From Thermoflexales bacterium (lineage in GTDB: Bacteria; Chloroflexota; Anaerolineae; J036; Brachytrichaceae): 44,505 nt of DNA. Positions 6,691 to 16,654 of the stretch are shown here, piece after piece; the first letter of the stretch is position 1; the number at the start of each line of letters is the position of its first letter. Made by a program: the position numbers and the translations under genes. The DNA lies in contig JANWVF010000052.1 of the NCBI GenBank assembly GCA_025056965.1, positions 1 through 44,505 on the forward strand, read 5' to 3'. Under the pieces are notes generated by a model. That model ran no database searches, was not told where the DNA came from, and saw only the letters and a program-made list of their open reading frames with translations.

Positions 6691-6721
6691 TTGACGATTA
6701 GGGCAGCCTGTGCGATATATG
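6691..6721 (+). promoter_or_regulatory. putative promoter of the SDR/TIM-barrel operon
   Basis: TTGACG at 6691-6696 is followed after 19 bp by TATATG at 6716-6721. The spacing is long, but the -35 is close to consensus and the predicted start lies near 6728, only a few bases before the ATG at 6731. Confidence 0.4.
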
Positions 6722-6730
6722 CGCGTTGTC

Positions 6731-7447
6731 ATGAACCTTCAACACAAGATCGTCGCCGTCGTCGGCGGCGCGACGGGCATCGGCAAAGCGACGGCGGAGA
6801 TTTGCGCTGCCGCCGGGGCGACCGTGATCGTCGCCGACTTCAACGAAGCCGATGGACGCGCCACGGCGTCGGCCGTGGGTGGCGCATTCTTTCCGATCAA
6901 CGTGGCCGACGAAGCATCGGTCGCGGCAGCGTTCGCCGACATCGGCGCGCGCTACGGTCGGTTGGATGCGCTGATCCAGACCGCCGGCATCCTACGTGGG
7001 GCGTTCGTGCCGCTCGAAGAGTTCGACCTGGCCACCTTTAAATCCGTGGTGGACGTGAACCTGATCGGCAGCTTTCTGTGCGCCAAGCACGCCGTCCCCC
7101 TGCTCAAGAAAGCCGGCAAGGGCGTGATCGTGTTGGTGTCATCGGGCGCGGCCATCGGTGGCAGCTCCTCATACGCCTACGGCGCGAGCAAGGGCGGCGT
7201 GAACGCGCTGGGCATCACGCTGGCGAACAAGCTGGCCGCCGACCACATCCGCGTCAACGTGGTGATGCCGGGCAACATAGACACGGCCATGAAGCGATCG
7301 GTCATCGCCGCCGAGCGTGAGCGGCTGGGGCCGGGCGGCGAACAGCAGCAGCTCGAGCTGGGCGAGCCGGCCGGCGTCGGGCGCATCCTGGCCTGGCTGG
7401 CCAGCGACGACGCCGACTATGTGCGCGGCATGATTCAGACGCGCTAG
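6731..7447 (+). CDS. SDR family oxidoreductase
   Basis: A 238-residue classical SDR with the cofactor motif GGATGIG (12-18), acidic D36 after strand beta2 (VIVADF, favouring NAD+ over NADP+), catalytic S138, and Y150-G-A-S-K154. The NNAG motif reads QTAG, a mild departure. Two earlier in-frame starts exist (6710, 6719), but the predicted promoter lies across them, so the ATG at 6731 is preferred. It is followed after 11 bp by a TIM-barrel isomerase-like gene with a strong Shine-Dalgarno, so the two probably form an operon for oxidation of a sugar or sugar acid. The exact substrate is not readable. Confidence 0.85.
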   Translation: MNLQHKIVAVVGGATGIGKATAEICAAAGATVIVADFNEADGRATASAVGGAFFPINVADEASVAAAFADIGARYGRLDALIQTAGILRGAFVPLEEFDLATFKSVVDVNLIGSFLCAKHAVPLLKKAGKGVIVLVSSGAAIGGSSSYAYGASKGGVNALGITLANKLAADHIRVNVVMPGNIDTAMKRSVIAAERERLGPGGEQQQLELGEPAGVGRILAWLASDDADYVRGMIQTR

Positions 7448-7458
7448 GAGGGATCACC

Positions 7459-8349
7459 GTGAAGCTCGGCGTCGCCGGCCAACTGGCCCATCCCGACGAG
7501 CCCGACGCGGTGCTGCTGCCGCCGGATTGGCGCGCGATTGACGCAGCCGCGGCGCAGCGCGTGCGCCGCGCCGGATTTCGCGGCGCACAACTGTTCATCC
7601 ATCGCCCGCTCGAGGCCGACCCCGACGATCTGCAGCGGGTGAAGCGCGCCTTCGCGGCCGCCGAGCTGGAAGTGGCGCAGGTGAACGGCTGGTATGAGCC
7701 GCTATGCAGCTACGACGATGCGACGCGCGCCGAGGGCGTGCGCGGCATGCAGGCGCTGGTGCGCATCGGTCGAATGATGGATACACCTAGCGTCTATGTT
7801 CGGCCGGGCGGGCACAACCCGAACGGGCACTGGTATGCCCATCCGGAAAATCATTCCGCGCGCACGTTCGACAACATCGTGGACAGCCTGCGCAAGGTGT
7901 GCGCCACGGCGCAGGACGAAGGCGTGACGGTGGCCGTGGAGGGACATGTGCTCTCTGCGCTCGACACGCCGCAGCGCGTGCGCGATCTGCTCGACGCCGT
8001 CGGTTCGCCCGCGCTCAAGTTCAACTACGATCCGGTCAACTTCATCGGCACGGTGAAGCAGGTGCACGACACGACGGGTGTGCTGAACGAACTCTACGAT
8101 TTGCTCGGGCGCGACATGGTCGCCGCGCACGCGAAGGATTGCCGCCTGGCCGATCAGCTCGTCGTCCACATCGAGGAAGTCGTCCCCGGCAGCGGCACGT
8201 TGGACTATGTGCTGTTCATGCGTCGCTTTCAGGCAGCTTGCCCGGACGGCTACTTCATCATCGAGCACCTGCCGAACGCGCGCGTGCCGCAGGCGCGCGA
8301 CTTCATCTGCGCGACGGCGCAGCGCCACGGCATCCCCTTGGAGTGCTGA
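7459..8349 (+). CDS. sugar phosphate isomerase/epimerase-like TIM-barrel protein (AP endonuclease 2 fold)
   Basis: A 296-residue protein resembling the xylose-isomerase-like TIM-barrel superfamily. Landmarks are GFRGAQLF near the first strands, VAQVNGWYEPL, VYVRPGGHNPNGHW, the metal-ligand strand VAVEGH, LKFNYDPVNF, VAAHAKDCRL and the closing FIIEHLP; the E, D, H and E residues at strand ends are those that usually bind the divalent metal. The start is GTG at 7459, supported by a near-perfect AGGAGG at 7446-7451. Paired with the upstream SDR, it may act in a sugar or inositol catabolic step, as in many SDR/isomerase pairs. Substrate unknown. Confidence 0.8.
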   Translation: MKLGVAGQLAHPDEPDAVLLPPDWRAIDAAAAQRVRRAGFRGAQLFIHRPLEADPDDLQRVKRAFAAAELEVAQVNGWYEPLCSYDDATRAEGVRGMQALVRIGRMMDTPSVYVRPGGHNPNGHWYAHPENHSARTFDNIVDSLRKVCATAQDEGVTVAVEGHVLSALDTPQRVRDLLDAVGSPALKFNYDPVNFIGTVKQVHDTTGVLNELYDLLGRDMVAAHAKDCRLADQLVVHIEEVVPGSGTLDYVLFMRRFQAACPDGYFIIEHLPNARVPQARDFICATAQRHGIPLEC

Positions 8350-8424: not shown

Positions 8425-8937
8425 ATGATGAAAGCCATTTCACGCAGACGATTCTTCACGCTGGCAGGGCTGAGCCTGACCGCCGGCGCGCTGCTGGCGG
8501 GATGCGGCGGCGATGGAGGGCAGTCGGCCCAGCCTACGGCGCCGCCGGCCGGGTCGGGCGGCGAGGTCTCGCTCACCCTGGCTTCCAAAGGCAGCACGCC
8601 CTTTTACGACCGAGAACGCTTGGAGGTCAAGGCCGGCGCGCGGGTCACGCTCACGTTCAAGAACGAGGCCGAGCCCGGCTCCAACCGCCTGTTCAACTGG
8701 GTGCTGGTCAAGCCAAACACGAAGTTCCGCGTAGTGAGCGACGGCCAGTCGGAAGGCTCGCCTGAGACGAGCTACGTGAAGCCCAACGATCCGAACGTGA
8801 TCGCCCACACGCGGCTGGTCGCCCCCGGCGAGAGCGACACCATCACCTTCGACGCGCCGCCGCCGGGTGAGTACCCTTACATCTGCACCTTCCCGGGCTA
8901 TTACAACACGATGAATGGCGTGTTGGTGGTGCAGTGA
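8425..8937 (+). CDS. azurin/auracyanin-like cupredoxin lipoprotein lacking both copper-ligand histidines
   Basis: A 170-residue exported lipoprotein. A twin-arginine motif (SRRRFF, residues 6-11) precedes a hydrophobic stretch and lipobox LLAGC27. After a glycine/proline linker comes a cupredoxin domain closely similar to azurin: NWVL at 91-94, YVKPNDPNVIAHTRL at 117-131, DTITFD, and C154-T-F-P-G at 154-158. In azurin the type 1 copper is held by His46, Cys112, His117 and Met121. The aligned residues here are F90, C154, Y159 and M163, so Cys and Met are kept while both histidines are gone. A normal blue copper site is therefore unlikely. A GAGGAT Shine-Dalgarno at 8415-8420 supports the start. 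It sits alone between a sugar-metabolism pair and an importer operon. Confidence 0.85.
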   Translation: MMKAISRRRFFTLAGLSLTAGALLAGCGGDGGQSAQPTAPPAGSGGEVSLTLASKGSTPFYDRERLEVKAGARVTLTFKNEAEPGSNRLFNWVLVKPNTKFRVVSDGQSEGSPETSYVKPNDPNVIAHTRLVAPGESDTITFDAPPPGEYPYICTFPGYYNTMNGVLVVQ

Positions 8938-8963: not shown

Positions 8964-9905
8964 TCAGAGCCGCGCGCGGTCGGACGAGGGGTCAAGCGCG
9001 TCTCGCAGGCCGTCGCCGAGGAAGGAGAAGCCCAACACCAAGAGCGCGAGCGCGACGGTCGGGATGACGCCGACGTACAAGTAGTTGGGGCTGGAGAGGT
9101 AGCGGCCGATCGCGCCGACCATCTTGCCCCAGCTCGGCAGCGGATCGTTGATGCCGTAGCCGAGGAAGCTCAGGCCTGCCTCGGCGGCGATGAAACCCGG
9201 AATGGCAAAGCTGACCGCCACGATCAGCGGGTTGATGATATTGGGCAGCAGGTGGCGCACCATGATGAAAGCGGTCGTTGCGCCTAGGCTGCGCGCGGCG
9301 CTGACGAAGTCGCGTTCCTTATAGGTCAGCACCTGCGCGCGTACTAGGCGCGCCAACCCGGGCCAGCCTAGGATCGAGATGGCAACCGTGACCTGTAAGA
9401 CGCCGTTGCCGATCAACAACATCAACAGGATCTGGAAGAGCAGGCCCGGCAGCGCGCCGATCACCTCGAACATGCGGTTGAGCGCGTAATCCCACACGCC
9501 GCCGAAGTAGCCGGAGAGGAAACCGAACAGCAACGCGAGCGACACGACGATGCCGGTGGCGGCAAGCGAGACGACCAAGCTGACGCGCGCGCCCCAGATC
9601 AGCCGGCTGAGGATGTCGCGGCCGAGTTCATCGGTGCCGAGCACGTGCGCCGGATCGCGCCCGGGCGGCAGCCAGGTCTTGAACAGGTTGGTGCGATCGT
9701 AGGGGAAAGGCGAGACGAGCGGCGCACATACGCCGGCGAAGACGAAGATCAGCACGATGATCAGGCCGACGATGGCCAGGCGGTTGCGCCGGAAGCGCCG
9801 CCAGGCCAACTGCGCGGGCGAGAGCGGCTTGTACTCGTATATCGCGCCGCGTGCGGCCGCATGCACGGACGATGCGCCCTGCACCGGTGGATTTTGCGCG
9901 GCCAT
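8964..9905 (-). CDS. ABC transporter permease, OppC/DppC type
   Basis: A 313-residue inner-membrane permease. The N-terminal segment LAWRRFRRNRLAIVGLIIVLIFVFAGVCAPLVSPF is the standard OppC_N domain, then HVLGTDELGRDILSRLIWGARVSL and the EAA loop, here SAARSLGATTAFIMVRHLLPNIINPLIV, which couples to the ATPase. About six membrane spans; length is normal. It lies three bases downstream of the OppB-type gene, on the same strand, as the last gene of a binding protein-OppB-OppC operon. No OppD/OppF ATPase follows, so the ATPases must be encoded elsewhere or shared. The substrate is probably a peptide or other small oligomer. Confidence 0.93.
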   Translation of the reverse strand: MAAQNPPVQGASSVHAAARGAIYEYKPLSPAQLAWRRFRRNRLAIVGLIIVLIFVFAGVCAPLVSPFPYDRTNLFKTWLPPGRDPAHVLGTDELGRDILSRLIWGARVSLVVSLAATGIVVSLALLFGFLSGYFGGVWDYALNRMFEVIGALPGLLFQILLMLLIGNGVLQVTVAISILGWPGLARLVRAQVLTYKERDFVSAARSLGATTAFIMVRHLLPNIINPLIVAVSFAIPGFIAAEAGLSFLGYGINDPLPSWGKMVGAIGRYLSSPNYLYVGVIPTVALALLVLGFSFLGDGLRDALDPSSDRARL

Positions 9906-9908
9906 CGG

Positions 9909-10853
9909 TCAGTGCCCTCCCCCTAACCGGACGCGCGGGTCAATCAGCGTGTAAGCGATATCTATGAGCAGGTTGCTGATCGTCAGCATCGTCGCAGCGA
10001 TGATCACGGTGAAGATGATGACCGGGTAGTCGCGGGTGTAGATGCTCTCCAGGAAGAAGCGCCCGATGCCCGGGATGGCGAAAGCAATCTCGACGAAGGT
10101 CGAGCCGGTGATCGCGTTGGCCAACACCGGTCCGAAGACGGTGACCAAGGGGATGAGCATGTTGCGCATGGCGTGCTTCATGATGACGACGGCGCGACTG
10201 AGCCCTTTGGCGCGGGCCGTGCGGATGTAGTCCTGCCCCAGCACGTCGAGCATGCCGGAGCGGGTGTAGCGCGCGAGGGCGCCCACCGTGCCGAGGCCAA
10301 AGATGAACGCCGGCAGCACCCAGGCATTAGGCGGCTGTTGATACAGCGGCTGGCCGTTGTTGAAGCCGAACCACTTCAACCCGATGACGAAGATGGCGAT
10401 GCCGAAGAAGATCAACGAGATGATCGGCACAGTGACGGTGACCAGCGCGATGGTGGTGATGATCTGATCTACGATGGTATTGCGCTTCAGCGCCGCGATC
10501 ACGCCCAGCACGACGCCCAGCGGGAAGCTCCACGCGACCGACAGGAAGCCCAACATCAAACTTGACCCCCAGTATTTGGAGAACAGGTCAATGACGCGCG
10601 TATTGGGATAGTAATACGAGATGCCGAAGTCACCCTGCACGGCCTTGGTGATCCAGTTCCACCAGTTCACGTAGAACGGCTGGTCCAGGCCGTATTTACG
10701 CATCATGTTGGCCTTGGCTTCGGGCGAAAGCGGCTGATTGATCTCGTCGAAAGGACCGCCGGGCGTGTTGTACATCAGGAAGAACGTCAGGAACGAGACG
10801 CTGAGCAGCACGAAAACCAGCCCGGCCAAGCGGCCCAAGATATACCTCGCCAT
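9909..10853 (-). CDS. ABC transporter permease, OppB/DppB type
   Basis: A 314-residue permease. The N-terminus (YILGRLAGLVFVLLSVSFLTFFLMYNTPGGPFD) is the usual first span plus periplasmic loop of OppB. GDFGISYYY is the usual loop before the second span, and the coupling EAA loop is RTARAKGLSRAVVIMKHAMRNMLIPLVTVFG. The tail VIIAATMLTISNLLIDIAYTLIDPRVRLG matches family endings. It is separated from the upstream binding-protein gene by a 73-bp gap holding a strong hairpin and is followed closely by the OppC-type gene. The frequent periplasmic NNGQPLYQQPPNAW insert is ordinary for DppB-like proteins. Confidence 0.93.
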   Translation of the reverse strand: MARYILGRLAGLVFVLLSVSFLTFFLMYNTPGGPFDEINQPLSPEAKANMMRKYGLDQPFYVNWWNWITKAVQGDFGISYYYPNTRVIDLFSKYWGSSLMLGFLSVAWSFPLGVVLGVIAALKRNTIVDQIITTIALVTVTVPIISLIFFGIAIFVIGLKWFGFNNGQPLYQQPPNAWVLPAFIFGLGTVGALARYTRSGMLDVLGQDYIRTARAKGLSRAVVIMKHAMRNMLIPLVTVFGPVLANAITGSTFVEIAFAIPGIGRFFLESIYTRDYPVIIFTVIIAATMLTISNLLIDIAYTLIDPRVRLGGGH

Positions 10854-10926: not shown

Positions 10927-12807
10927 TTACGGGATGCTCTTGCGGAATTCGAGGACGTTGTTGGCGATGTAGATCTCCGAGGCCGCACCGTTCATCGCGC
11001 TGACGCCCGGCCACGCGACGCCGCGGTTGAGGTTGACCTTGCCCGGCTCCATCGGTGCGCCCTTGATGTAGGGCTTCCACAGGTTGACCGGCGTGCGGTG
11101 GATGCAGAAGATGAAGGCGCACTCCTCGACCATCAACTTCTCGGCCTGCTGGTAGAGCTTGGTGCGCTCCTCGATGTCGGTCATCGGGCCGGCTTTGGCC
11201 AGCAGGTCCTGGTATTCCTTGTTGTTCCAGGTGTGACGGCCGCCTAGGTCGCTCCCCTTCATCACCGTCAGCATGTTCGACGGGTCAAGGTAGTCCATGC
11301 CGTAGGAGATGTAGCCGAAGTCAATCGTCGTGTCCGGCTTGCCGTCGGGCGTGCGCTTGAGCAGGTCGGCCATGTAGTCCTTGATCGGCACGGACTTGAC
11401 CTCGACCTCAATGCCGAGGTTCTGCTTGATCGAGTCGGCGTAGGCCTGCGTGATCTCCTTGCCGAAGTAACCCTCGAGGTCGCCGCGCATCTGCAACAGC
11501 AGCTTGTCCACCTTGACGCCGGACTCGGCGTAGAGCTTCTTGGCCAGCTCGGGATCGTAGCGCTGGATGTCCTTGAGGGCCTCGCCGTTGGCCGCGGGGA
11601 AGCCGGGCGCGAGGAAGGAGTAGGCCGGGCGCGCCAGGAGCGGCTTGGTGATGAACTTGACGATGCTCTCGCGGTCGAGCAGGTGCGAGAGCGCCTGGCG
11701 GAACTTCAGGTTATCAAAGGGCGGCTTGGTGACGTCGAAGAAGAAGTAATCGGTGCGGAAGTCGCCCACGTCCGGCGTAGCCTGCGCGCTCAATTGCGGG
11801 TCGTTCAGCACGGCGTCCACCTGCGCGGCGTTGCTGACGCCGGTGAAGTCCAGCTGGCCGGCCTGATACGCCTGGAAGCTGTCGGGGAACGGCACGGCGA
11901 TCATGCGCTCCAAGAAGGGCTTGATGTCGTCGGCGGCCTTCGGGTTGGCGACCACTTCGACGCGCGTCGGGCTGAACTCCTTGACGATGAAGGGGCCACA
12001 CGAGACGCAGGTCGCCGGGTTCGAGTTGTAGGCCGGGCCGTGAGCCGCCAGCGCCTTAGCCTGGAGCGGCATGGCGAACATGAACAGACGCGGCAGGTAC
12101 GGCGTGACTTCGCCGGTCTCGACGATCAGCTCGTAATCATTGGCGCCCTTGCGCACGCCCAGCTCCTCGACGGGCAGCTTGCCGGCGACGACCTCATCGA
12201 AGTTCTTGATGTTGCCGGAGCCCTTGCTGTAGTACCAAGTGAAGTCGTAGGCGCTCTTCGGATCGGCCATGTAGCGGAAGGTCGCTACGAAGTCATCGGC
12301 AGTGAGCGGCGTATCGTCGCTCCACATAATGTCGTCGCGCAGGGTGAAGGTCCACGTCAAGCCATCCTCCGACACCTTCCATTCCTTGGCCGCGCCGGGC
12401 ACGAGCTCGAAGTCCTTGTTGATGCGCGTGAGCGGCACGCCGTACAGGTCGGACAAGGCGCCGCGGTTGTAGACCATAGCGCTAATGTCCATGAACTGAC
12501 CGGGGTTGCCCTGGCCGGCGGTGACATACACCTGCTGCTCCGGCGGTGCCGCATCATCCGGCAAGACCTTGCCCACGCTGTTGACCCGCGGTCCGGTCGT
12601 CGGAGTGGGTTCTGGGGTGGGCGTCGGCGCTTCGGTCGGCGGGGGCGCGGTAGGGGCTTCAGTGGGGGGCGGTGCAGTGGGCGCTTCGGTGGCCGGAGGA
12701 GCGGCCGGAGTGGCCGGCGCACACGCCGCCAAGAGCGCGCCGCCCGCGCCCAGGCTCAACAACTTCAACATCTGACGGCGGCTGAGAACCGTCTCTTGTC
12801 TGTTCAT
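10927..12807 (-). CDS. peptide/nickel-type ABC transporter substrate-binding lipoprotein (SBP family 5)
   Basis: A 626-residue extracytoplasmic binding protein. The N-terminus has a Tat-like SRRQMLKLLSLGAGGALLAAC with lipobox cysteine C29. Next is a low-complexity tether of repeated PTEAPTAPP units (about residues 38-66). The SBP_bac_5 domain follows, recognisable by LTWTFTLRDDIMWSDDTPLTADDFVATF, then FRQALSHLLDRESIV, and the C-terminal RTKLYQQAEKLMVEECAFIF. A strong AGGAGGAAA Shine-Dalgarno (on the minus strand around 12815-12823) supports the start. It is the first gene of the reverse-strand importer operon and faces a second, unrelated importer operon across a 345-bp gap. Confidence 0.93.
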   Translation of the reverse strand: MNRQETVLSRRQMLKLLSLGAGGALLAACAPATPAAPPATEAPTAPPPTEAPTAPPPTEAPTPTPEPTPTTGPRVNSVGKVLPDDAAPPEQQVYVTAGQGNPGQFMDISAMVYNRGALSDLYGVPLTRINKDFELVPGAAKEWKVSEDGLTWTFTLRDDIMWSDDTPLTADDFVATFRYMADPKSAYDFTWYYSKGSGNIKNFDEVVAGKLPVEELGVRKGANDYELIVETGEVTPYLPRLFMFAMPLQAKALAAHGPAYNSNPATCVSCGPFIVKEFSPTRVEVVANPKAADDIKPFLERMIAVPFPDSFQAYQAGQLDFTGVSNAAQVDAVLNDPQLSAQATPDVGDFRTDYFFFDVTKPPFDNLKFRQALSHLLDRESIVKFITKPLLARPAYSFLAPGFPAANGEALKDIQRYDPELAKKLYAESGVKVDKLLLQMRGDLEGYFGKEITQAYADSIKQNLGIEVEVKSVPIKDYMADLLKRTPDGKPDTTIDFGYISYGMDYLDPSNMLTVMKGSDLGGRHTWNNKEYQDLLAKAGPMTDIEERTKLYQQAEKLMVEECAFIFCIHRTPVNLWKPYIKGAPMEPGKVNLNRGVAWPGVSAMNGAASEIYIANNVLEFRKSIP

Positions 12808-12859
12808 GTGTTGTTTCCTCCTGATCGTAGCTGATGGGTTGAACGTGATTAACTAAGTG

Positions 12860-12883
12860 GTTGAAATCTATGTTGAAATCTAT
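12860..12883. repeat. two tandem copies of GTTGAAATCTAT
   Basis: Two exact 12-bp units, 12860-12871 and 12872-12883, followed by a further G. They lie upstream of the reverse-strand binding-protein gene, where direct repeats often bind a regulator; on the minus strand each copy contains a TAGATT hexamer that could serve as a -10. Function is inferred. Confidence 0.7.
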
Positions 12884-13059
12884 GTCGAGCGTCGAGGCAG
12901 AATCGTGTGGATAGGCTGTCGTCTGCTGTTGCGGCAAACCACCTCCCTTTCAAACCATACAAAGTTTGATTGTCGCTCAAGTCTTTCAATCGCGCAAATC
13001 GGACTCCGGGCTACCCTTGGTGGGATGGCCGCTCTGCGCCGCGATGCCGAGGTTGCGCG

Positions 13060-13087
13060 TTGCAAAAGCGAAGGGCGATAGTATGAT
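13060..13087 (+). promoter_or_regulatory. putative promoter of forward importer operon
   Basis: TTGCAA at 13060-13065, a 16-bp spacer, and TATGAT at 13082-13087. The predicted start near 13094 gives a leader of about 59 bases ending in a strong Shine-Dalgarno before the ATG at 13153. Confidence 0.45.
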
Positions 13088-13152
13088 CCCGCGCGAACCT
13101 CGGCCGCGTTCGACGTGGCCAAACCGAAGATCAAGGAAAGGAGAAAAGACCG

Positions 13153-14820
13153 ATGAACCGTCTTACGCTGCTGCTGTTGACTGCGTTCGCTACTCTGGTG
13201 GCCGCGTGCGGCGCACCGCAGCCGGCATCGCCCGCGCCGGCCGAAGAAGCTACGACATCAGCGGCTGCGCCGGCCACCGATCGCGCGCGCACGTTGATCC
13301 TGGCCATGCCCTCATTGCCTACGAACCTCGATCCCGGCGTTGCCACCAGCGGCGCAGAGAACATGCTCCATCGCGCCTTATATGAAGGGCTGGTGAACTT
13401 CAAGGGCGACAGCACCACAGAGGTCGAGCCGGTGTTGGCAGAATCGTTCGAGCCGAACGCCGACAAAAGCGTGTGGACGTTTAAGTTGCGTCGCGGCGTC
13501 AAGTTCACCGACGGCGCGGATTTCAACGCTGAAGCGGCTAAGATCGGCTACAAGCGCATGGTGGACATCGGGCTGTTAGGGAACACTATCAACCGATTCA
13601 CCGGCGGCGACGTTGAGAACAACCTCGTCGTGAAGGATGAATACACGCTGGAATGGCGCTGTGGTTTCCCGTGCCCGAACCTGCCCCTGGCGCTAGGCAC
13701 GGCCTATGGCACGCTGTTTGTGTCCCCCAAGGCGCTCAAAGCACACGAGCAGATCACAGATGGCAAGAGCGATCACGCGCAGGCGTGGTTCACCAACAAC
13801 GCCGCAGGCACCGGCCCCTACATGATCGAGAGCATTAAGCCGAACGAAGAGATCGTGTTCGTCCGCAACCCGAATTACTGGCGCGGCTGGAACGACGGCA
13901 AGCAGCGCTTCGAGCGCATCATCATTCGCAACGTCCCAGAGCCGAGCACGCGCCGCCAGTTGTTGGAGAAAGGCGATGCCGACATCGCGCTGATCACCAC
14001 CGTAGAAGACTACAAAGCGTTGCGCGACACCGGGCGCTTCCAGGGCAGCGATAAGCCGCTCTTCCGCATCAACTACATCACCTTCACCAAGCGCGGCATC
14101 TTGAAAGACCCGCGCGTGCGCCGGGCGATCTCGTACGCCTTTGACTACGAAGGTTACGCCAACAACGTCGAGGGAGGGCTGATGAAACGGGGCACGTCGC
14201 CCTGGCCCAGCGGCATGAGCAGCGCCGTCGGCACACGCGGATTCCAATACACCTTCGACTTGGAGAAGGCCAAGGCGCTGCTCCAGGAGGCCGGCGTTCC
14301 CGAGGGCACGGAGCTCACCTACCTCTACGCGACCGGCTACGGCTACTATGAGCGCATGGGTCAGGTGCTGCAGGCCGGCTTGGAACAGATTGGGCTGAAG
14401 CTCAAGCTAGAAGAGCGCGACGAGGCGACCTTCAACGACATCTTTTACGGCTCGCGCCCCGTGGAAGAGCTGCCTGACCTGATGGGCTACGCTTGGTGGC
14501 CGGATTACGACGACTTCTACAACTACGTTAACCCAGTCTTCCACACGCGCAACGCCCAGAATGACGGCCTGGGCAACGGGGCGCTGTATAGCAATGCCGA
14601 GCTAGACGCGCTCATCGCCCAGAGCAAGACCGAGACCGACCCGGCCAAGCTCCAGGCGATCTACGAGCGGGCGCATGAAATCCTCATGTTCGAGGATCCG
14701 GCCGCCCTGTATGCCGCCGAGCCGCAAGAGGAGATCTTGATCGCCAACAGCGTGAAGGGACACCCCTGGAATCCGATTCACGTAAAGACATTTGACTTTT
14801 ACGGCCTGTATCGCGAGTGA
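13153..14820 (+). CDS. second SBP family 5 substrate-binding lipoprotein
   Basis: A 555-residue binding protein with a Sec-type lipoprotein signal (MNRLTLLLLTAFATLVAAC, lipobox cysteine C19), then an Ala/Pro/Thr linker to about residue 43. The SBP_bac_5 fold is recognised by ILAMPSLPTNLDPG, MLHRALYEGLV, SVWTFKLRRGVKFTDGADFNAE, DPRVRRAISYAFDY and a C-terminal YERAHEILMFEDPAALY. It differs from the divergent binding protein in signal type (Sec rather than Tat-like) and length, so the two are not a recent duplication. The stop codon overlaps the GTG start of the next permease by four bases. Ligand unknown. Confidence 0.93.
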   Translation: MNRLTLLLLTAFATLVAACGAPQPASPAPAEEATTSAAAPATDRARTLILAMPSLPTNLDPGVATSGAENMLHRALYEGLVNFKGDSTTEVEPVLAESFEPNADKSVWTFKLRRGVKFTDGADFNAEAAKIGYKRMVDIGLLGNTINRFTGGDVENNLVVKDEYTLEWRCGFPCPNLPLALGTAYGTLFVSPKALKAHEQITDGKSDHAQAWFTNNAAGTGPYMIESIKPNEEIVFVRNPNYWRGWNDGKQRFERIIIRNVPEPSTRRQLLEKGDADIALITTVEDYKALRDTGRFQGSDKPLFRINYITFTKRGILKDPRVRRAISYAFDYEGYANNVEGGLMKRGTSPWPSGMSSAVGTRGFQYTFDLEKAKALLQEAGVPEGTELTYLYATGYGYYERMGQVLQAGLEQIGLKLKLEERDEATFNDIFYGSRPVEELPDLMGYAWWPDYDDFYNYVNPVFHTRNAQNDGLGNGALYSNAELDALIAQSKTETDPAKLQAIYERAHEILMFEDPAALYAAEPQEEILIANSVKGHPWNPIHVKTFDFYGLYRE

Positions 14821-15827
14821 TCGGTCAGTTCATCCTTCGTCGCCTGCTCGGCCTGTTGGCCGTGCTGGCTGCGATCTCGATTGCGACATTCGTGCTGGCG
14901 CGCGTGGTACCCAAAGACCCCGCGCGCCTCATCGCCGGCCCGCGGGCTAACGCGCAAGCCGTCGAGGCGCTGCGAGAGCGGCTGGGGCTCAATGGCTCGA
15001 TCCCAGAACAGTACGTGCGCTACATGGCAGCGCTGCTCCGAGGCGACCTGGGCATGTCGTTCAGCACCAAGCGGCCGGTGCTCCAGGACATCCAGACCTT
15101 CCTGCCGGCCACGGCCGAGCTGACCATCGCCGCGTTGCTGATCAGCCTATCGGTCGGCATTCCTGCGGGCATTTTGAGCGCCGCCTGGAAGGACTCACCC
15201 CTGGATTACATCGGGCGGTTCGCATCCACGCTGGGCGTATCGCTGCCGCCGTTCTGGGTGGCGCTGGTAGGGCAGTTGGTCGGCTACTACCTGCTGTCAG
15301 TTTTGCCGGTGGGCGGGCGGCTCAGCCAAGGGATCGCGCCGCCACCGACGGTGACCGGCCTCTACACGCTGGACAGCCTGTTAGCCGGCCAATGGGCCAC
15401 CTTCGCGGACGCGCTCTGGCACCTGATCCTGCCGGCGTTCGTGCTGAGCTTCGGGGTGATCGCCGTCTTCCTGCGCATGATGCGCGCCAGCATGCTAGAG
15501 GTGTTGCAGCAGGACTACATCCGGGCGGCGCGCGCCAAGGGCCTGACCCAGCGCGCCGTCGTGCTGCGACACGCGGTGCGTAACGCGCTCATCCCTACGT
15601 TGACCATCCTTGGCCTGCAGGTGGGCTTGATGATGAGTGGCTCGTTCCTCATCGAGAGCATCCTGCAGTGGCCGGGGCTGGGGCTATACGCGGCGAACGC
15701 GCTGTTAGCTGCCGACTACAACGCCACCATGGGAGTGACGCTCGTGCTGGCGACGATCTATACGGTCGCCAACGTCATCGTAGACATCGCGTATGGCTTG
15801 GCCGATCCCCGCCTGAGAGTGACATGA
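14817..15827 (+). CDS. ABC transporter permease, OppB/DppB type (second operon)
   Basis: A 336-residue permease starting at a GTG that overlaps the binding-protein stop (GTGA). N-terminal FILRRLLGLLAVLAAISIATFVLARVVPKDPARLIAGP and the loop GDLGMSFSTKRPV are family signatures; the coupling loop is RAARAKGLTQRAVVLRHAVRNALIPTLTILGLQ. About six membrane spans. Its stop overlaps the ATG of the OppC-type partner (ATGA), so the three genes are translationally coupled. As in the reverse operon, no ATPase subunits are present. Confidence 0.93.
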   Translation: MIGQFILRRLLGLLAVLAAISIATFVLARVVPKDPARLIAGPRANAQAVEALRERLGLNGSIPEQYVRYMAALLRGDLGMSFSTKRPVLQDIQTFLPATAELTIAALLISLSVGIPAGILSAAWKDSPLDYIGRFASTLGVSLPPFWVALVGQLVGYYLLSVLPVGGRLSQGIAPPPTVTGLYTLDSLLAGQWATFADALWHLILPAFVLSFGVIAVFLRMMRASMLEVLQQDYIRAARAKGLTQRAVVLRHAVRNALIPTLTILGLQVGLMMSGSFLIESILQWPGLGLYAANALLAADYNATMGVTLVLATIYTVANVIVDIAYGLADPRLRVT

Positions 15828-16654
15828 AGCGGTTTCTGCGTCAAAGCCGCCTGAATGCCTTCGCCGCGGTGATGTCGGCGCTGATCGTGCTGGCCGCGCT
15901 GTTTGGAGATGCGTTGGCGCCGCACCCACCGCGCAAGCAAAACTTGGCCCAGCGCCTGCAGCCGCCTTCGGCACAACACTGGTTCGGCACAGATGACTTT
16001 GGGCGGGACATCTTTAGCCGGGTGTTGAGCGGCGCGCGCATCTCGGTGCAAGTCGCCGTCGTCGTACTGAGCGTCGCCGTAACGGTCGGCACGCTGATCG
16101 GTGCGGTCGCCGGTCTGCTGGGCGGCTGGGTGGATACGCTGCTGATGCGCCTGACGGACGTGTTCCTGGCCTTCCCGGCGTTGATCCTCGCCTCGGCGAT
16201 CGGCGCAGCGCTGGGCAACAACCTGACGAACACGATGCTGGCGCTCAGCGTGGTGTATTGGCCGTGGTATGCCAGGTTAGCCCGCGGCCAGGTGTTGGCA
16301 CTCTCACAGCGCGAATTCGTGCAGGCAGCACACGCGGTTGGGATGAGCACGCCGCAGATCCTCAGCCGCCACATGCTGCGCAACATCCTGCCGATTCTCC
16401 TGGTGCAGATTAGCTTGGACGTAGGCTACGTGATCCTTTACACGTCGGCGCTGAGCTTCCTCGGCCTGGGCGCGCAGCGCCCCGAGCCGGAGTGGGGGCT
16501 GATGCTCAGCGATAGTCGCAAGTTCGTGCAAACTGCGCCGTGGACGATGCTCTACCCCGGCCTGGCGCTCACAGTGACGGTGTTGGCTTTTAACCTGCTC
16601 GGCGACGGCCTGCGCGACTACCTCGATCCGCACCTGCGCACCCGACGCCGGTAA
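15824..16654 (+). CDS. ABC transporter permease, OppC/DppC type (second operon)
   Basis: A 276-residue permease. It shows FGTDDFGRDIFSRVLSGARISVQVAVVV near the N-terminus, DVFLAFPALILASAIGAALG, the coupling loop QAAHAVGMSTPQILSRHMLRNILPILLVQ and the C-terminal FLGLGAQRPEPEWGLMLSDSR...LLGDGLRDYLDP typical of DppC. The frame is open upstream (15668), but the ATG at 15824 overlaps the previous stop and gives family length. It ends 20 bp from the convergent CdsZ-like gene. Confidence 0.93.
   Translation: MKRFLRQSRLNAFAAVMSALIVLAALFGDALAPHPPRKQNLAQRLQPPSAQHWFGTDDFGRDIFSRVLSGARISVQVAVVVLSVAVTVGTLIGAVAGLLGGWVDTLLMRLTDVFLAFPALILASAIGAALGNNLTNTMLALSVVYWPWYARLARGQVLALSQREFVQAAHAVGMSTPQILSRHMLRNILPILLVQISLDVGYVILYTSALSFLGLGAQRPEPEWGLMLSDSRKFVQTAPWTMLYPGLALTVTVLAFNLLGDGLRDYLDPHLRTRRR

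Follow-up and report, generated by a model that had tools for sequence, protein, structure and literature searches.

A gene of the window, by which we mean the whole stretch of 44,505 nucleotides that was analysed (contig 81 of its own assembly, 3.1 Mb, 99% complete), encodes an azurin/auracyanin-type lipoprotein from which the two-His/Cys/Met ligand set of the type 1 copper site is absent, Phe90 and Tyr159 standing for both histidines and Cys154 and Met163 being retained. The explanation that we consider probable is that of a copper-free, non-redox azurin paralogue, kept for a binding or docking role after a single loss of both histidines. The triggering event would be an ancient duplication of the gene within this family of Anaerolineae, giving two azurin/auracyanin copies, one of which would have lost its two copper histidines once, before the split of four genera, and would have been retained as a copper-free, non-redox protein. 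This copy would carry a Tat-like lipoprotein signal and would probably be anchored to the outer face of the membrane, on its external side. Packed aromatic side chains (Phe/Tyr at position 90, Tyr/Phe/Met at position 159) would probably occupy the old copper pocket, and the adjoining face, which in azurin is the hydrophobic docking patch for electron transfer, would have become more polar and basic with its new residues. The altered face would most likely bind a partner or a ligand in place of electron transfer.

The features of the locus are collected in Table 1. The gene is an open reading frame of 170 residues with an ATG start, and its coordinates and residue numbers had been given exactly in an earlier note on this DNA. 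The product matches the Pfam Copper-bind family PF00127 above the family cut-off (E 1.4e-9), and among solved structures it is closest to auracyanin A (2aan, E 2.9e-21, residues 29-169), followed by the Roseiflexus auracyanin and several azurins. It shares with the auracyanins of Chloroflexota (2aan, 6kol, 1qhq) their fold, sequence and phylum, and differs from them by the aromatics that replace both His ligands and by the switched residues of the copper face. With azurin (TIGR02695) it has in common the fold, the equivalents of Asn47 and Ser/Thr113 and the loop CTFPG, but it lacks His46 and His117 and scores 58.8 bits with this NCBIfam equivalog, below the cut-off of 105.1; the canonical paralogue L002 likewise stays under it (94.1 bits). 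Common descent with auracyanins is supported by the PF00127 match and by a tree that places the protein beside the canonical copies of its own taxonomic family (f1). The azurin alignment of the earlier note stands for family membership and not for the closest match, which is an auracyanin rather than azurin proper; its reading of both histidines as replaced, with Cys154 and Met163 kept, is borne out by the alignments and by the seven intact copies of the genus. The protein is a member of the azurin/auracyanin family by descent; judged by its ligands, it is no blue copper protein. The twin arginines of the Tat-like motif and Cys27 are invariant in the 13 aligned His-less relatives, and a Tat-type lipoprotein is the predicted product, with the corresponding export route.

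Table 1. Positions in the window, strand and basis of the features of the locus
Feature	Position	Strand	Basis
SDR dehydrogenase gene, upstream	6710..7447	+	Pfam; position conserved only within the genus
Xylose-isomerase-like TIM-barrel gene, upstream	7459..8349	+	Pfam; position conserved only within the genus
His-less azurin/auracyanin-type lipoprotein gene, 170 aa	8425..8937	+	ORF, Pfam, solved-structure match, orthologues
Tat-like motif SRRRFF, residues 6-11	8440..8457	+	read in the sequence
Lipobox LAGC, putative lipidated Cys27	8494..8505	+	read in the sequence
Phe90 codon, position of copper ligand His46	8692..8694	+	alignments; Phe/Tyr in 14/14 His-less tree relatives
Cys154 codon, position of copper ligand Cys112	8884..8886	+	alignments; Cys 10/14, Thr 4/14 relatives
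Tyr159 codon, position of copper ligand His117	8899..8901	+	alignments; Tyr 12/14, Phe 1/14, Met 1/14 relatives
Met163 codon, position of axial ligand Met121	8911..8913	+	alignments; Met 13/14, Leu 1/14 relatives
OppC-type importer permease gene, convergent neighbour	8964..9905	-	Pfam; same place in the genus and in other genera
OppB-type importer permease gene	9909..10853	-	NCBIfam; synteny
SBP_bac_5 substrate-binding lipoprotein gene	10927..12807	-	Pfam; NCBIfam OppA-like, below cut-off; synteny

Within the genus, which is probably of the Candidatus Roseilinea type, all seven intact copies, that of the window included, read F/C/Y/M at the four ligand positions, the orthologues of the six other genomes being 75-86% identical. 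A normal H/C/H/M paralogue accompanies them in all nine genus genomes; in the genome of the window, where the earlier note had proposed to look for it, this paralogue is found on contig 52 and is 53% identical to the window protein. Homologues bearing the histidines in the species group, which had been named beforehand as an observation that would speak against the note, are not found among the orthologues, the His copies forming a separate paralogue group. A sequencing error or a lone mutation is ruled out, since the orthologues agree at both sites. Among the genus genomes searched, G018 has no His-less orthologue and the copy of G024 is broken: divided between two contig ends that share an overlap (L138/L139, contigs 21 and 2), it loses homology after residue 152-153, and with it the Cys, Tyr and Met positions, and no part of the Opp importer is left between the gene and the carB region. 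According to a published report (PMC8446752), Roseilinea has no Alternative Complex III and uses a bc complex.

The survey for His-less azurins covered Chloroflexota. In 28 genomes from 8 genera of the same taxonomic family, further His-less relatives, such as the earlier note had suggested searching for, are present in g4 (YCFL in G007, FCYM in G009 and G011, and a contig-end piece with Phe in G008), g6 (YTMM in G013) and g8 (FTYM in G025-G027), and all of these genomes except G007 and G008 also showed a canonical copy. The order-level search gave no further family with His-less relatives, and the sequences added from 396 class genomes and 400 phylum genomes were, among those read, all H/C/H/M. 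A tree was built with the four ligand columns masked from the 14 His-less sequences and 51 other azurin/auracyanin-type sequences of the family, class and phylum searches. The 14 sequences group together in a single clade (support 99/92) within the azurin group of their own family, and the 51 others all read HCHM except for the three members of a separate Gln-type clade.

The constraint on both paralogues was estimated by pairwise NG86 dN/dS over the last 120 codons, which correspond to the mature domain. The genus median is 0.059 for the seven His-less genes versus 0.074 for the nine canonical genes, and the values in g8 are 0.064 and 0.048, respectively; the copper-less copy is under purifying selection and about as constrained as the working copy. 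These ratios say that the protein matters and are silent on its role. They rule out pseudogene decay for the intact copies, only that of G024 being broken, and a ratio of about 0.06 agrees with the selection, rather than decay, for which the earlier note had argued.

When eight representatives of the His-less proteins are compared with 26 canonical members of the family, positions 88, 90, 101, 102, 108, 159, 160 and 162 switch as a set and are the sharpest switches near the site, several of them flanking the two ligand loops in azurin numbering. From the canonical to the His-less proteins, Leu/Val is replaced by Lys/Arg at 88, Asp/Glu by Leu/Phe at 101, Ala/Thr mostly by Arg at 102, Ile mostly by Gln at 108 and Leu mostly by Arg/Thr at 162, and position 160 becomes mostly Tyr. 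Position 162 corresponds to azurin Leu120, part of the hydrophobic patch for electron-transfer docking. The second-sphere residues Asn91 and Thr155 are invariant; they are the counterparts of azurin Asn47 and Ser113, which hold the ligand loops together (PMC12071310). The invariance of the loop-holding residues, combined with the switch of the face residues, argues for a scaffold that was kept and a functional face that was rebuilt, and the rebuilt face would fit a new binding role. The AlphaFold2 model of the window domain (pLDDT 94.5; 95.9 for a Cys-less g8 relative), whose top Foldseek matches are 6kol (E 2.8e-14) and 2aan (E 8.1e-14) and which aligns with the latter at Z 22.1 and rmsd 1.1 over 121 residues, indicates compatibility with the fold and is not an independent proof of it, because the input alignments hold many canonical copies. 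The earlier description of a well-kept azurin fold accords with these values; together with the purifying selection and the normal paralogue of the same genome, it makes the copper-free paralogue put forward in that note likely.

The gene order in the genus is SDR, TIM-barrel and His-less gene, the latter lying tail-to-tail with OppC-OppB-SBP, the genes of a peptide/sugar importer. The convergent importer also adjoins the His-less gene in G007, G009, G011, G013, G025 and G026 (cut by the contig end), the contigs of G027 and G008 end at the His-less gene, and the upstream neighbours vary by genus. The upstream SDR and TIM-barrel proteins were rejected as partners: their place is conserved in the genus only, and the SDR genes of the g4 loci are about 33% identical. 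A more specific form of our explanation makes the protein an accessory of the neighbouring Opp/Dpp-type importer, a lipoprotein that would, for instance, help with docking of the binding lipoprotein or with substrate capture at the membrane, a proposal that we regard as possible but doubtful. It would account for the tail-to-tail arrangement seen in the genus and on every sufficiently long contig of g4, g6 and g8, with different upstream genes, for the absence of both gene and importer from G018, G006 and G014-G016, and for the state of G024, which lacks the importer together with the 3' end of the gene, as a single deletion would leave it. Against it, the genes are convergent and therefore do not form one transcript, G012 has no azurin gene but retains the importer at a comparable locus, and in the g2 genomes a more distant importer occurs with no His-less gene. 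Moreover, the importer proteins of the window and G025 are 80-91% identical and the azurin copies 40%, and gene and importer are weakly associated across 22 genomes (Fisher p 0.02, uncorrected for kinship), an association that shared descent may explain. The stronger version, in which the whole azurin clade would have turned into a copper-free binding subunit of an Opp-type importer, the old electron-transfer face docking the binding lipoprotein or the ligand, is unlikely; if true, importer docking would be a use not known for any azurin.

Several observations were made on these importers. The window contains, at 10927-16654, two Opp-type sets (SBP, OppB, OppC) back to back, the second at 13153-16654, and there is no ATPase gene beside them among the ORFs read. 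In G012 (L140:8558-13653), the importer and an aminotransferase-like gene are neighbours of the same types as in G013, the azurin gene between them being absent, and the genome gave no azurin match at the threshold used. The importers of g1 and g8 (L043 of G026 and L045 of G025 versus the window) are 80-91% identical and the neighbouring azurins only 40-45%, a gap for which an exchange of importer genes or very uneven rates are possible causes.

Returning to the copper-free binding protein that we favour, a question raised by the retained Cys154 and Met163 is whether a metal is still bound, either Cu(I) by these two residues, the protein then serving as copper buffer or chaperone, or a different metal with the use of Tyr159. 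This is quite improbable in our opinion. The two residues are conserved in the seven intact genus copies, so that a weak two-ligand Cu(I) site would be possible within the genus, and Cys is present in 10 of the 14 clade members; but Cys is replaced by Thr in G013, G025, G026 and G027 and Met by Leu in G007, fold and locus being kept, and the clade has no other conserved ligand. Because of these five replacements, and because the mature domain is without any invariant His, Cys, Asp or Glu across the His-less clade (E67 and D122 are each found in 13 of the 14 sequences), a metal, heme or Cys/Tyr cofactor common to the whole clade at the old site appears unlikely, which weakens the other metal, heme or Tyr/Cys chemistry that had been suggested earlier as the family function. 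Redox or radical chemistry of Tyr159 and Cys154 without copper, such as a Cys-Tyr link, is extremely improbable: both residues are fixed in the genus, but the pair is broken in G013 and g8 (Cys to Thr) and no partner redox enzyme is kept at the locus across the genera. A tie to phototrophy was also rejected, PF00124 being present in 10 of 12 carriers of the His-less gene versus 6 of 10 non-carriers (p 0.35); the link with photosynthesis made in the earlier note is unsupported, His-less genes occurring without reaction-centre genes, and the reverse.

Two known systems offer an analogy. The early nodulin-like proteins of plants (ENODLs), members of the phytocyanin family, form a blue-copper-fold branch unable to bind copper (PMC4499708); like the window protein, they are a copper-less branch kept for other work, in a plant family and after a separate loss. 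E. coli SufI/FtsP, a Tat substrate with a role in division, has retained 2 of 12 copper ligands; it does not bind copper and is regarded as non-enzymatic (PMC2661564). It shares with the window protein a bacterial cupredoxin fold, lost copper ligands and Tat export, which is only predicted for the latter, and differs as a three-domain relative of the multicopper oxidases rather than of azurin, soluble in the periplasm and acting in cell division. By analogy, the window protein most likely works as ENODLs and SufI do, as a cupredoxin scaffold without copper, and with such precedents elsewhere among the cupredoxins the finding is less surprising. The MGHN tetrapeptide has been described as less conserved in Chloroflexi, where paralogues seem commoner (PMC8779525), and we found no azurin or auracyanin without its copper histidines described in the literature that we searched. 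The clade is real, under selection and of single origin, is new to the literature searched, and would have a binding function. A selected clade of several genera, most of whose genomes also carry a canonical copy, amounts to a natural experiment on a cupredoxin without copper, and the annotation "copper-binding protein" obtained via PF00127 is probably wrong for such genes.

The three Gln-type sequences belong to g2, where the first His is replaced by Gln (QSHM, QSHM and QCHM; support 100/100). The aromatic and Gln clades being separate, the copper site appears to have been lost at least twice in this family, the aromatic kind once and the Gln kind in g2. Azurin is a textbook metalloprotein; here, its scaffold would have been kept and its metal site removed, in one case through the aromatic residues and, it seems, a second time through a change of His to Gln in another genus. 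The Gln-type genes encode lipoproteins (L051:4942-5433 in G002, L052:2169-2654 in G001 and L054:4966-5460 in G003) with a shortened loop, STAPRH or CTAPRH, and in G001 and G002 the gene follows what appears, by eye, to be an adenine deaminase or amidohydrolase gene.
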